Below are positions 6,333 through 29,253 of a stretch of 64,000 bases of DNA, in pieces. Where the stretch lies: the NCBI RefSeq assembly GCF_002369955.1, contig NZ_AP014564.1, positions 1,720,996 through 1,784,995 of the forward strand, read 5' to 3'. A program made the translations under genes and the position numbers. Positions within the stretch are counted from its first letter, which is position 1. The number at the start of each line of letters is the position of its first letter. Below the pieces are notes generated by a model. That model ran no database searches. It had not been told where the DNA came from and was given only the letters and a program-made list of their open reading frames with translations. The DNA comes from Ichthyobacterium seriolicida. Lineage in GTDB: Bacteria; Bacteroidota; Bacteroidia; Flavobacteriales; Ichthyobacteriaceae.

Positions 6333-8804
6333 ATGAAGATATTTAAATTAAATAAAGTATTGTTATTTGTATTGTCACTCCTTTTTGCGTTCTCGTGTGA
6401 TAAGAACAAAGTCATTCCTGAAAATGAAGATTCTAAAAGCACAATTCCTAAAGAGATAATCAGTATAAAATTAGACGCATCTCAAAATCCTGGAATAGGT
6501 AGTGTTGATATAAATGCTGAAGTTATTGAATCTAATGGACAAAAAATATATGTTTTGTTATTACCTCATGGTGTAAGTGCTGAAAGTAAAGAGTTTAAAC
6601 CTACGATTGAAATATCTGATAACACTACTATAAACCCTGAGAATAGTTCAGCTCAAGAGCTTGGAAAAATCGTTATTACTGAAAATGTTTTTGATTTATC
6701 TCAATCGGGTGTAGAATATACTGTTGCAGCCAATGGAGATAACTCAGTTAAAAAATACAGAGTTATAGCACTTAGAGCTCCCCATGGCATTAAGGCTTCT
6801 GAAACTGCAATTAAGGCTAATGATAAGCTTTTAGCAAATTCTGATGTTACTAATCCATCTGTTGATGATCTAAACCAAACCATAACATTTGGTTCTTTAG
6901 AAAACCCCAATCTAAAAAATGAAGTTGCTGATAAGAGTATTGAATTAGGTATAACTGTAGAATTTAATAGAGTAATCCCAGATGGGAGTGAAGATACTTA
7001 CAAAAATATCCCTCCTCCAACTACTCCAACTAAAGCTACTTTCAAAAAGAAAGAAGGTGATGAAAATACTTATGAAGCCATTGTTCCAATCACTTATTCA
7101 ATAGAAGACAAAGCTTTTGTAAAAAATTATGAAGTTACTATATATAAAAAATCTAATTCTAAAATTAAAGAAGAACTAAAGGCATCTATAGATGCTGCTA
7201 AAACTAAAATTGGAGAAGCTTCTACTACTGCTACTGCAGCCTCTGAGCTTGTTAAAACTTTAACTGATAAGTCTACTGCTGAGGCTACTGTAGCTACTGC
7301 TAAAGCAGCAATTGCTACTGCTGCTAAGGCTGTCTTGGATGCTACTCAAGCTGTTGAGGCTGCTACTACTCTTGAAGCTTTAGCTGATGCCAAGACTAAA
7401 GTTGAAGAAGCTAAGAAAGCCGTTGAAAAAGCTAAAGAAGCCGCTAATACCGCTAAGGTTGCTGCTGATGATGCTGCTAAAAAAGCTCAGCTTGAAGCTG
7501 CTAAGGCTGCTGATGAAGAAAAAGTTAAAACTATTGCTAATACTGCTATATCTGCTGGCAAAGCTGCTGGTAGAGCTGTTAATATAGCTTTTGAAGCTTC
7601 TAGAGCTGCTGGTGAAGCTGAAAGAGATGCTGATAGAGCTGCCAGAGATGCTGATAGAGCTGCAAGAAATGCTGATAGAGCTGTAAGAGATGCTGATAGA
7701 GATACTGATAGAGATACTGATAGAGCTGCTAGAGCTGCTAACTTTACTGCTCAGGCTGCTAGAGCTGCTGATGCTGCTACTAAGGCTAGAGCTGCTGCTA
7801 AGGCTGAACAAGCTAAGCAAGCTGCTGAATCTGCGTCTACTCAAGCTCAAGCTACTGCTGAAGCTGCCAAGAATGCAGCTGAAACTTCTAATACTAATGT
7901 TGAACAAGCTAAGCAAGCTGCTGAAACTGCTGCCGCTGAAGCTCAAAAAGCTGAAGATGCTAAGAATGCAGCTGAAACTGCTAGGGATGCGGCTAAAAAT
8001 GCTCAGACTAAAGCTGAAGCTGCTGCTAAAAAAGCTCAGCTTGAAGCTGCTAAGGCTCTTGCTGCCAAGGCTTCTAATGAAGCTGGAAAAGCTAAAACTG
8101 CTGCTGAGGCTGCTAAGTCTAAATCTACTGAAGCTCAGCAAGCTGCTACTGACGCTTCTACTAAAGCTAATACTGCTAAGGACACTATTGATGCTCTAGT
8201 TGCGGCTATAACTGATACTTCTTCAGATGCTGCTACTAAGGCTACTGCTGCCCAAGCTACTGCTGCTGATCTTGTTACTAAAGCTGGAACCACTAAATCT
8301 GCTGCTGATGATACTGATACGAAGGCTAGAGAAGCTCAGCAAGCTGTTCAAACTACTGTTGATGAGGCTACAAAAGTTAAAACTGCTGTTCAGGCTTTGG
8401 TTGCTGCTTTAACTAGCGATGATGTTAATGATGCTATCCAAAAAGCTACTGACGCTAAGACTGCTACTGATTCTGCCTTGGAAAAGGCCAAAGAAGCTAA
8501 GGAAGCTGCTGATACTGCTCTTCAAAATGCTACTGAAGCTGCTAATAAAGCTGAACAAGCTAAACAAGCTATAGAAATTGCCAAAACTACTGTTGATGCT
8601 ATTAACCCTACTGATGCTAATGCTACTACTAAGGCTACTGAAGCTCAGACTGCTGCTGAAGCTGCTGCTACTAAGGCTGGGTTAGCTAAGACTGCTGCTG
8701 ATACTGCTGCTGAAAAAGCTAATTTAGCCAAAACAGCTATTGAACAAGCTAAGGCGGCTATTGATGTTGCTAAGACAGCCATTGAAGCTATTACTGTTAC
8801 ATAA
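6333..8804 (+). CDS. Array gene 1: lipoprotein with Ala-rich coiled-coil stalk
   Basis: 823 residues from the ATG that aligns with the paralogues; ATGs at 6318 and 6321 are also in frame. The signal peptide ends with lipobox FAFSC (Cys22), and an acidic stretch follows. Residues about 30-285 form the conserved head of the family, beta-rich and DUF5018-like, with YVLLLPHGV and SGVEYTVAANGDNSVKKYRV. From about 285 to the end the protein is dominated by Ala, Lys, Glu, Thr and Asp with no Cys or Pro-rich breaks, strongly suggesting a long coiled coil. Residues about 430-467 are unusual: an Arg/Asp-rich run of the type DADRAARDADRAAR not found in the other members. It ends with AIDVAKTAIEAITVT, close to the shared C-terminal motif. 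Probable outer-membrane or surface lipoprotein. Function not known. Confidence 0.85.
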   Translation: MKIFKLNKVLLFVLSLLFAFSCDKNKVIPENEDSKSTIPKEIISIKLDASQNPGIGSVDINAEVIESNGQKIYVLLLPHGVSAESKEFKPTIEISDNTTINPENSSAQELGKIVITENVFDLSQSGVEYTVAANGDNSVKKYRVIALRAPHGIKASETAIKANDKLLANSDVTNPSVDDLNQTITFGSLENPNLKNEVADKSIELGITVEFNRVIPDGSEDTYKNIPPPTTPTKATFKKKEGDENTYEAIVPITYSIEDKAFVKNYEVTIYKKSNSKIKEELKASIDAAKTKIGEASTTATAASELVKTLTDKSTAEATVATAKAAIATAAKAVLDATQAVEAATTLEALADAKTKVEEAKKAVEKAKEAANTAKVAADDAAKKAQLEAAKAADEEKVKTIANTAISAGKAAGRAVNIAFEASRAAGEAERDADRAARDADRAARNADRAVRDADRDTDRDTDRAARAANFTAQAARAADAATKARAAAKAEQAKQAAESASTQAQATAEAAKNAAETSNTNVEQAKQAAETAAAEAQKAEDAKNAAETARDAAKNAQTKAEAAAKKAQLEAAKALAAKASNEAGKAKTAAEAAKSKSTEAQQAATDASTKANTAKDTIDALVAAITDTSSDAATKATAAQATAADLVTKAGTTKSAADDTDTKAREAQQAVQTTVDEATKVKTAVQALVAALTSDDVNDAIQKATDAKTATDSALEKAKEAKEAADTALQNATEAANKAEQAKQAIEIAKTTVDAINPTDANATTKATEAQTAAEAAATKAGLAKTAADTAAEKANLAKTAIEQAKAAIDVAKTAIEAITVT

Positions 8805-8834
8805 CATGGATAGATTCGAAATATTTTAATTTTC

Positions 8835-8865
8835 AAAAAAAGGGGTGTTTTTATGCCCCTTTTTT
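8835..8865 (+). terminator. Rho-independent terminator after array gene 1
   Basis: A7-GGGG, a ten-base loop, then CCCC-T6. The A-tract/T-tract flanks extend the stem and would allow termination in both directions. Near-identical copies follow genes 2, 4, 5, 6 and 7, with a variant after gene 3. Confidence 0.85.
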
Positions 8866-8939
8866 AATGCCATTAAATCAGATTTGTCTGAAAAACTAAA
8901 CTCAATTAATATTTTTTTCTTCATGCTTATCTAAATCTA

Positions 8940-8955
8940 AACTATCTTCGTAGTT
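8940..8955 (+). promoter_or_regulatory. Promoter dyad, array gene 2
   Basis: AACTA-TCTTCG-TAGTT overlies the -7 region (TATCTTCG, two-thirds match to TAnnTTTG) and ends 28 bases before the ATG at 8984. Confidence 0.55.
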
Positions 8956-27855: not shown

Positions 27856-27925
27856 AATTCCATTAAATCAGGTTTATCTGAAAAATTTAATTAATATTTC
27901 TTTCTTTACATTTTTTAAATATAAA

Positions 27926-27937
27926 CTACCTTGGTAG
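27926..27937 (+). promoter_or_regulatory. Promoter dyad, array gene 8
   Basis: CTACC-TT-GGTAG, the shortest form of the dyad. It contains TACCTTGG, one mismatch from TAnnTTTG, and lies 35 bases before the ATG at 27973. Confidence 0.5.
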
Positions 27938-27972
27938 ACTTAAAATTAATCTATCTTAATAGTATTGAAATT

Positions 27973-29253
27973 ATGAAAATATTTAATCTAAGAAAAGCAT
28001 CATTGCTCATATTGTCAGTTCTTTTTACGTTTTCGTGTGATAAGAACAAAGTATTTCCTGAAAATGAAGATTCTCAAAGCACAATTCCTAAAGAGATAAT
28101 CAGTGTAAAGTTAAAGGAATCTCAAAATCCTCAAATAGGGGGTGTTGATATAACCGCTAAAGTTATTGAATCAAACGGGCAAAAAATCTATGTTTTATTA
28201 TTGCCTAATGATGTAGATGCTGAAATTAAAGAGTTTAAACCTACGATTGAGATATCCGAAAATACTACTATAATCCCTGAGAGTGGTTTAGCTCAAGAAT
28301 TGGGAAAGATTGTTTTTACTGAAAATGTTTTTGATTTATACCAATCAGGTGTAGAATATACTGTTACAGCTACTCAAGACAACTCAACTAAAAAATATAA
28401 AGTTATAGCTTTTAGAGCTCCCGATGCTATTAATGCTGCTGAAACTGCAATTAAGGCTAATGATAAGCTTTTAACAAATTCTGATATTACTGCTACATCT
28501 GTTGATGATCTAAACCAAACTATAACATTTGGTTCTGCAGAAAATCCTAATCTAAAAAATGAAGTTGCCGATGAGAGTATTGAATTAGGTATAACTGTAG
28601 AATTTAATAGGGGAATTCCACATGGGGGTAAAGATAATTATGAGAAAATCCCTCCCCCAACTACTCCAGCTAGAGCTACCTTCAATAAGAAAGAAGAAGA
28701 TGAAAATACTTATGAAGCCATTATTCCAATCACTTATAAAATAGAGGATATAGCCTTTGTAAATCAATATAAAGCTATCATATATAAAAAATCTGATACT
28801 CAGGTTGAACAAGAGAAACTAATTGATACTGCTATTGCACCCATTAAAAAAAAGATTGAAGCTTTAGTAACTGTTGCTAATATCTTTAATAATGAAGTTA
28901 GTGCTGCTAAAACTTCTATTATTATAGGATATATTCAGAATACTCAGGTTGAAGCTGTTAAGACTGCTGCTGATGCTGCTGTTGCTAAAGCTTATGACGT
29001 TATATCTGCCGTTACTACCTTAGACTTAGATGAAATTGATGAGGCTGTTAAATCCGCTATTGATAAAGCTAAGACTGCTGCTGAAAAAGTTAAAGAGTCC
29101 ACTGAAAAAGCTAAAGAAGCTATTATCACTGCTGCTGCTATTGAACCTGCTAAATTTACTGTTGAGGCTTCTCGTGAACTTGGCATGACTTGTATAGCTG
29201 CTGATGAAGCTAAGAAAGCTATTGAAGAGGCTAATGAAGCTCTTAATCTCTGA
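27973..29253 (+). CDS. Array gene 8: short member with reduced stalk
   Basis: 426 residues from the ATG aligned with the paralogues; the frame is open 14 codons further upstream, but that part overlaps the promoter dyad. Lipobox FTFSC (Cys22) and a full head (to about 285) are present. The C-terminal part is only about 140 residues and less repetitive: KTAADAAVAKAYDVISAV, then a Lys/Ala/Glu-rich helix and TVEASRELGMTCIAADEAKKAIEEANEAL. It contains a Cys and a Met, which the long stalks avoid, and lacks the AITIS-type end. It is the last gene of the array and has a different terminator. It may represent an older or differently used head protein. Function unknown. Confidence 0.8.
   Translation: MKIFNLRKASLLILSVLFTFSCDKNKVFPENEDSQSTIPKEIISVKLKESQNPQIGGVDITAKVIESNGQKIYVLLLPNDVDAEIKEFKPTIEISENTTIIPESGLAQELGKIVFTENVFDLYQSGVEYTVTATQDNSTKKYKVIAFRAPDAINAAETAIKANDKLLTNSDITATSVDDLNQTITFGSAENPNLKNEVADESIELGITVEFNRGIPHGGKDNYEKIPPPTTPARATFNKKEEDENTYEAIIPITYKIEDIAFVNQYKAIIYKKSDTQVEQEKLIDTAIAPIKKKIEALVTVANIFNNEVSAAKTSIIIGYIQNTQVEAVKTAADAAVAKAYDVISAVTTLDLDEIDEAVKSAIDKAKTAAEKVKESTEKAKEAIITAAAIEPAKFTVEASRELGMTCIAADEAKKAIEEANEALNL

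Follow-up and report, generated by a model that had tools for sequence, protein, structure and literature searches.

The window analysed here, a 64,000-nucleotide stretch of the Ichthyobacterium seriolicida genome (1,921,407 bp in a single contig), harbors a tandem array of eight paralogous lipoprotein genes at positions 6333-29253. On balance, we favor the view that these genes encode lineage-restricted envelope lipoproteins, homogenised by gene conversion, in which tails made of helical bundles stand on a beta-sandwich base, and whose likeliest role is that of a surface coat or spacer-adhesin layer. The anchor motif, paralogy, transcription signals, mosaic heads, heptad core, unit repeat and the contrast between heads and tails are read from the sequence; beyond these, we infer that the tails fold as bundles and point outward, and that the proteins are exposed on the surface and act as a coat.

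Organization of the array

All eight genes lie on the plus strand, flanked by mutS (3570-6203, minus strand) and a hemC-like open reading frame (ORF; 29909-30826), and the seven spacers between them measure about 177-182 bp each. An initial annotation had described eight paralogues of the same orientation between these two genes, and the ORFs bear out its coordinates. Copy 1 (6333..8804, 823 amino acids), for which the ORF list places the start at an in-frame ATG upstream (6318), has the shortest of the long tails and lacks the turns of the ~160-residue repeat. The tail of copy 2 (8984..12310, 1108 amino acids) contains one additional unit of ~160 residues, and further predicted lipoproteins are encoded by copy 3 (12491..15412, 973 amino acids), copy 5 (18673..21597, 974 amino acids), copy 6 (21780..24728, 982 amino acids) and copy 7 (24907..27795, 962 amino acids), the last being the copy used for the structure model. 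Copy 8 (27973..29253, 426 amino acids) combines the head with a helical tail that is short and of another type. In copy 4 (15591..18492) the head is frameshifted near 15985 and the downstream part is open in another frame, which may be either a natural pseudogene or an assembly error; given this frameshift, seven products of the array are intact, and six of these are long-tailed. The earlier claim that each product is lipid-anchored with a conserved head, and that seven carry a stalk, was right as to lipobox, head and Ala-rich helical tails and too high by one in both counts. Relative to the head of copy 1, those of the other intact copies show 75-82% identity.

Predicted fold of the helical tails

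The tails of the intact long copies comprise 538-823 residues with 35-37% Ala. Their hydrophobic residues, mainly Ala, recur every 3.42-3.56 residues (power 6-9 versus at most 2.5 in shuffles), and Ala makes up 59-76% of residues at the core a/d positions compared to about 21% at the other positions. Ala accounts for 99 of the 162 columns that are invariant in the tail, and these Ala are spaced by 3, 4 or 7 in 73% of cases, versus 47% (at most 60%) in random Ala subsets. An 11-residue (hendecad, LEA-like) periodicity was also considered and rejected, as the power at 3.67 was lower than at 3.5 in all long copies. Of 209 insertions and deletions (indels) between copies, 82 have a length divisible by seven residues, compared to 37 of 230 after block shuffling, a control that keeps local periodicity and destroys homology; this excess indicates that the heptad register survives changes in tail length.

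An internal repeat of ~480 nt is also found within the tail. For copy 7, the tail of which (25765..27792, plus strand) has the Ala heptad core and turns with a ~160-residue period, AlphaFold2 predicts helices of 92, 54, 101, 54, 105, 60, 57 and 57 residues separated by turns of 3-6 residues, with two shorter helices ahead of the 92-residue one; local confidence is 85-96 in much of the tail. Turn motifs of similar spacing (SLTSS-like, ASNTNV-like and ALVTALS-like) recur in copies 2, 3, 5, 6 and 7, with one further unit in copy 2, and copy 1 is without the first two motifs. The alternating 54- and ~105-residue helices would fit antiparallel three-helix bundles joined in a chain, as in spectrin, and the best shapes retrieved by Foldseek with the tail model are antiparallel helical bundles. 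Given the regular turns and these bundle-like shapes, we prefer a bundle chain to a single rod, the tail then probably consisting of antiparallel helical bundles linked in series, with units of ~160 residues. Of the Ala-rich coiled-coil stalk in the initial annotation, the alanine heptad core is real, but one long rod is doubtful in view of turns every ~160 residues.

An extended parallel coiled-coil fibre, in which the tail forms an unbroken dimeric or trimeric alanine-zipper rod of ~80-120 nm, seems unlikely to us. It would explain the pronounced heptads with their Ala-rich a/d positions and the weak likeness to the Lpp alanine-zipper Pfam model, and the monomer model of copy 7 is compatible with oligomers; however, the turn motifs are regular, every ~57 and ~105 residues, the helix breaks are predicted at high local confidence and the Foldseek matches are bundle-like. 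The bundle chain would perhaps be 30-40 nm long, versus 80-120 nm as a single rod, both lengths being calculated from a rise of 0.15 nm per residue of helix.

Lpp/OprI alanine-zipper lipoproteins (PF11839, NF040598) likewise have Ala at the heptad core, and three array copies give sub-threshold matches to them. The array tails display Ala at a/d of continuous heptads, as in Lpp-type proteins, but neither the short uninterrupted helix nor a score above the curated cut-offs, and the array proteins are about ten times longer, with regular turns and a predicted beta-sandwich base. Long antiparallel bundles are also seen in trypanosome ISG65 and the haptoglobin-haemoglobin receptor, which are among the Foldseek matches of the tail model; this likeness is in shape only, as organism and sequence are unrelated and the expect values (E) are not significant, and we treat it as an analogy. 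The Ser-Ala-175 repeat surface proteins (TIGR04319) have an Ala/Ser-rich repeat of a length similar to that in the array, and copy 1 matches them weakly (E 2.4e-4); the score is 21 bits where the cut-off is 120, and the likeness is probably compositional.

Transcription signals and recombination among the copies

A promoter and terminator of its own had been proposed for every copy, and a box upstream and a hairpin downstream were indeed located for eight out of eight. The 12-base box CTAYCTTNGTAG ends ~29-35 bases from the start codon and lies at 6289..6300, 8942..8953, 12450..12461, 15550..15561, 18632..18643, 21739..21750, 24866..24877 and 27926..27937 (plus strand) for copies 1 to 8, respectively. 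The promoter-like box of copy 1, CTACCTTTGTAG, includes TACCTTTG, which matches the Bacteroidota -7 consensus, TAnnTTTG. A looser pattern, CTANNTTNGTAG, has 13 sites in the window versus 0.86 expected, eight of which precede the eight copies. Folding of the seven spacers revealed in each an A/T-flanked GGGG..CCCC stem-loop followed by a U-run, with a predicted energy of -15.7 to -16.5 kcal/mol and z scores of -2.8 to -4.8. These putative terminators follow copies 1 to 7 at 8836..8865, 12344..12373, 15444..15473, 18526..18555, 21633..21662, 24760..24789 and 27826..27855 (plus strand), and the hairpin after copy 8 (29283..29321, plus strand) has a different sequence and a z score of -6.8. All were located by folding, as a standard terminator scan missed them; a sigma-70 scan was uninformative.

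The array heads are mosaics of identity blocks (permutation p<0.0005). At polymorphic sites, copies 3 and 5 are identical over head alignment positions 160-468, copies 3 and 7 over 315-537, copies 5 and 7 over 557-808 and copies 2 and 3 over 599-737, with an overall identity of 89-96% among the mosaic copies. The grouping of copies by spacers and 3' ends differs from that by heads. We attribute the mosaic heads to gene conversion between copies. The ratio of nonsynonymous to synonymous substitution rates (dN/dS) is 0.24-0.71 in the heads, which are under purifying selection, and 0.73-1.47 in the tails (C-terminal 270 codons), where uncertain alignment may inflate it. Mean pairwise protein identity is 0.85 for the N-terminal part and 0.60 for the tail, and the tails gain or lose whole heptads and units of ~160 residues.

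Tandem copies with recombination between them (the mosaic heads), the gain and loss of tail units, a tail dN/dS near 1 and four dispersed copies elsewhere in the genome would all be expected of an antigenic-variation locus, in which the copies serve as a repertoire and recombination yields new surface variants that evade fish antibodies. We nevertheless consider this explanation doubtful. A promoter-like box and a terminator accompany every copy, which argues against a single expression site with silent cassettes; moreover, copy 4 alone is broken, the heads are conserved and not hypervariable, and no invertible element was seen, although no systematic search for one was made. The Borrelia vlp/vsp and vls systems are tandem, variable, multi-copy lipoprotein genes with recombination between copies. 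The array resembles them in its recombining lipoprotein copies and differs in having no silent cassettes or single expression site, and nothing suggests one-at-a-time antigen switching.

Lipid anchor, head domains and location

A signal peptide with the lipobox LFTFS followed by Cys (residue 22; 24907..24972, plus strand, in copy 7) is conserved in all copies. The head of copy 7 (25012..25761, plus strand) is predicted to comprise two beta-rich domains that are distantly DUF5018-like. Since the lipobox Cys is directly N-terminal of the head, the head would be the membrane-proximal base and the tail the distal part. The conserved head and helical Ala-rich tail of the initial annotation were recovered, with the "head" as a base beside the lipid and the helical part distal. 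The tail would then point outward from the membrane.

No head match was obtained in Pfam, NCBIfam or PADLOC scans of the array products, in keeping with the earlier view of the family as uncharacterised, and sequence searches of the PDB gave no credible match for head or tail. The first head domain does align with the N-terminal part of lipoproteins of 1000-1250 amino acids encoded in the same genome (hhalign 96.4%, E 1.4e-9). Three of these were scanned with Pfam, of which two match DUF5018 (E 1e-25 and 1e-18) and the third matches PF22243 only, below the cut-off. The array heads themselves did not match DUF5018 (PF16410) at E up to 5 and stay below its gathering score. Among the Foldseek matches listed for the head model, 3hbz has the highest probability (0.77, E 0.085), and it is also matched by sequence with the DUF5018-type profile. 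Judging from these comparisons, the array head appears to be distantly related to DUF5018-type beta-sandwich lipoproteins. With the DUF5018 and related lipoproteins of Bacteroidota (PF16410, PF22243) it shares the N-terminal lipid anchor, predicted small repeated beta-rich domains, the profile match, the presence in the same genome and the CTATCTTAG promoter core; it differs in that a helical tail follows the array heads where further beta domains follow there, and in scoring below both Pfam models.

The published surface-export signal of Bacteroidota lipoproteins is C-x-K-(D/E)2 or an S-D-D-type motif near the +1 Cys (PMC5080379). In the array, the sequence from the lipidated Cys onward reads C-D-K-[NK]-[KN]-V, with acidic residues starting at about +8. 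The incomplete canonical signal, the Asp at +2 and the Ala-zipper likeness are what one would expect of periplasm-facing structural lipoproteins, i.e., TolA- or Lpp-like spacers or stress-protective helical proteins. We regard this as improbable, as a structural spacer would not normally be encoded by eight or more nearly redundant copies whose tails drift, Lpp is much shorter than the tail, and the SusD-like proteins of this genome also have a partial signal (C-V-K-D-I). Judged from their length and paralogy, the array lipoproteins are likely surface-exposed.

In the model we favor, an N-terminal lipid would anchor each array product, two small DUF5018-type beta-sandwich domains would form the base at the membrane, and a tail of 540-820 residues would project outward and fold into antiparallel three- or four-helix bundles of ~160 residues per unit. 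Copies would gain or lose whole units and whole heptads with the heptad register intact, and would be densely expressed together as a surface coat or spacer-adhesin layer with a constant anchor and base and drifting outer faces of the helices. Several points weigh against this model: the copy 7 tail model has a predicted template modeling score (pTM) of 0.41, and all its Foldseek E values exceed 0.05 (best 0.057); the copy 7 head model is of low confidence (predicted local distance difference test, pLDDT, 55); only half of C-x-K-(D/E)2 is present in the array, with K at +3 and the acids not at +4/+5; and the tail dN/dS carries the alignment uncertainty given above.

Related lipoproteins in the genome and beyond

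The family extends beyond the array: a whole-genome search with the head revealed four more long copies, at 232, 579, 660 and 1848 kb (ORFs of ~980-1112 amino acids), as well as shorter variants. The 150 nt upstream of the copies at 232 and 579 kb are identical, and the heads of this pair are 94% identical in DNA, but their tails are separated by many indels. One head type is joined to varied tails, i.e., Ala-rich helical, charged KEEATRKA-repeat or T/S/Q/G-rich ones. Outside this genome, only three partial and weak matches (E 3e-5 to 3e-4) were found among 396 sampled Flavobacteriales genomes, and neither of two scans of GTDB contigs found relatives, the first of them, by signal-peptide patterns, being uninformative. 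The array lipoprotein family thus appears to be lineage-restricted. The Ichthyobacteriaceae are represented by one genome, and the variation between strains that the initial annotation proposed would be conjecture.

In this genome, DUF5018 matches cover ~68 ORFs and ~173 kb (about 9%). Across 296 sampled genomes of the order, 217 DUF5018 candidates were counted here versus at most 14 in any other one listed, a rough comparison of first-look candidates with few scored per genome. DUF5018-type clusters, with ORFs of 500-1600 amino acids, are located at ~484-501, 793-832, 912-965 and 1005-1038 kb, and those of their genes that were read are tandem lipoproteins. The box TACTATCTTAGCTRA occurs at 22 places in the genome (reversed-pattern control, 0), and of eight upstream regions read from DUF5018-type genes, seven show its core, TACTATCTTAGCT(A/G)A. 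Since the CTATCTTAG core is common to the TACTATCTTAGCTRA box and the boxes of array copies 3-7, co-regulation of the array and the DUF5018-type genes is plausible from their upstream regions. It can further be speculated, tentatively, that the array forms one part of a coat of co-regulated surface lipoproteins that takes up about a tenth of the reduced 1.9-Mb genome, in which always-expressed copies trade ~160-residue units and no switching occurs.

Some additional observations concern these gene groups and their surroundings. Between the TACTATCTTAGCTRA box and the start codon, DUF5018-type genes have a conserved leader of ~115 nt, which may act as a regulatory 5' untranslated region. Five CTAA[AG]TTAGTAG palindromes at ~1.2-kb spacing (genome 1567255-1572203), and others at 1441-1443, 1473-1487 and 1165-1167 kb, hint at further tandem arrays. 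Near genome 229253-229946 and 656664-657853, two dispersed copies of the array family lie close to transposase ORFs that are insertion-sequence-like and may have been the means of dispersal. Within the window and outside the array, a distant head paralogue of 505 amino acids (57241..58758, minus strand) has a head about 42% identical and a charged KEEATRKA-repeat tail; this gene and one at genome 1710640-1712088 have like heads and very different tails, which suggests tail swapping. The gap ahead of hemC (~29600-29700) contains a short direct repeat, GTAGATAGATTGGCAAAAAAGTTTAATCC.

Implications

The disease caused by I. seriolicida is of economic importance in yellowtail farming. The species is the only one recognised in its family and is the agent of bacterial hemolytic jaundice in yellowtail (PMC5331501). 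Literature searches found nothing on these lipoproteins or on surface proteins of this organism, and the array together with the ~68 DUF5018-type ORFs would provide obvious candidates for its main surface antigens and host-contact proteins. The paralogues also give a direct readout of heptad-preserving indels and Ala invariance, which makes the fold of alanine-core tails testable. If the genome-wide co-regulated coat speculated on above exists, its outer layer of Ala-core helical bundles arranged in tandem on a beta-sandwich lipoprotein base would represent a new architecture.

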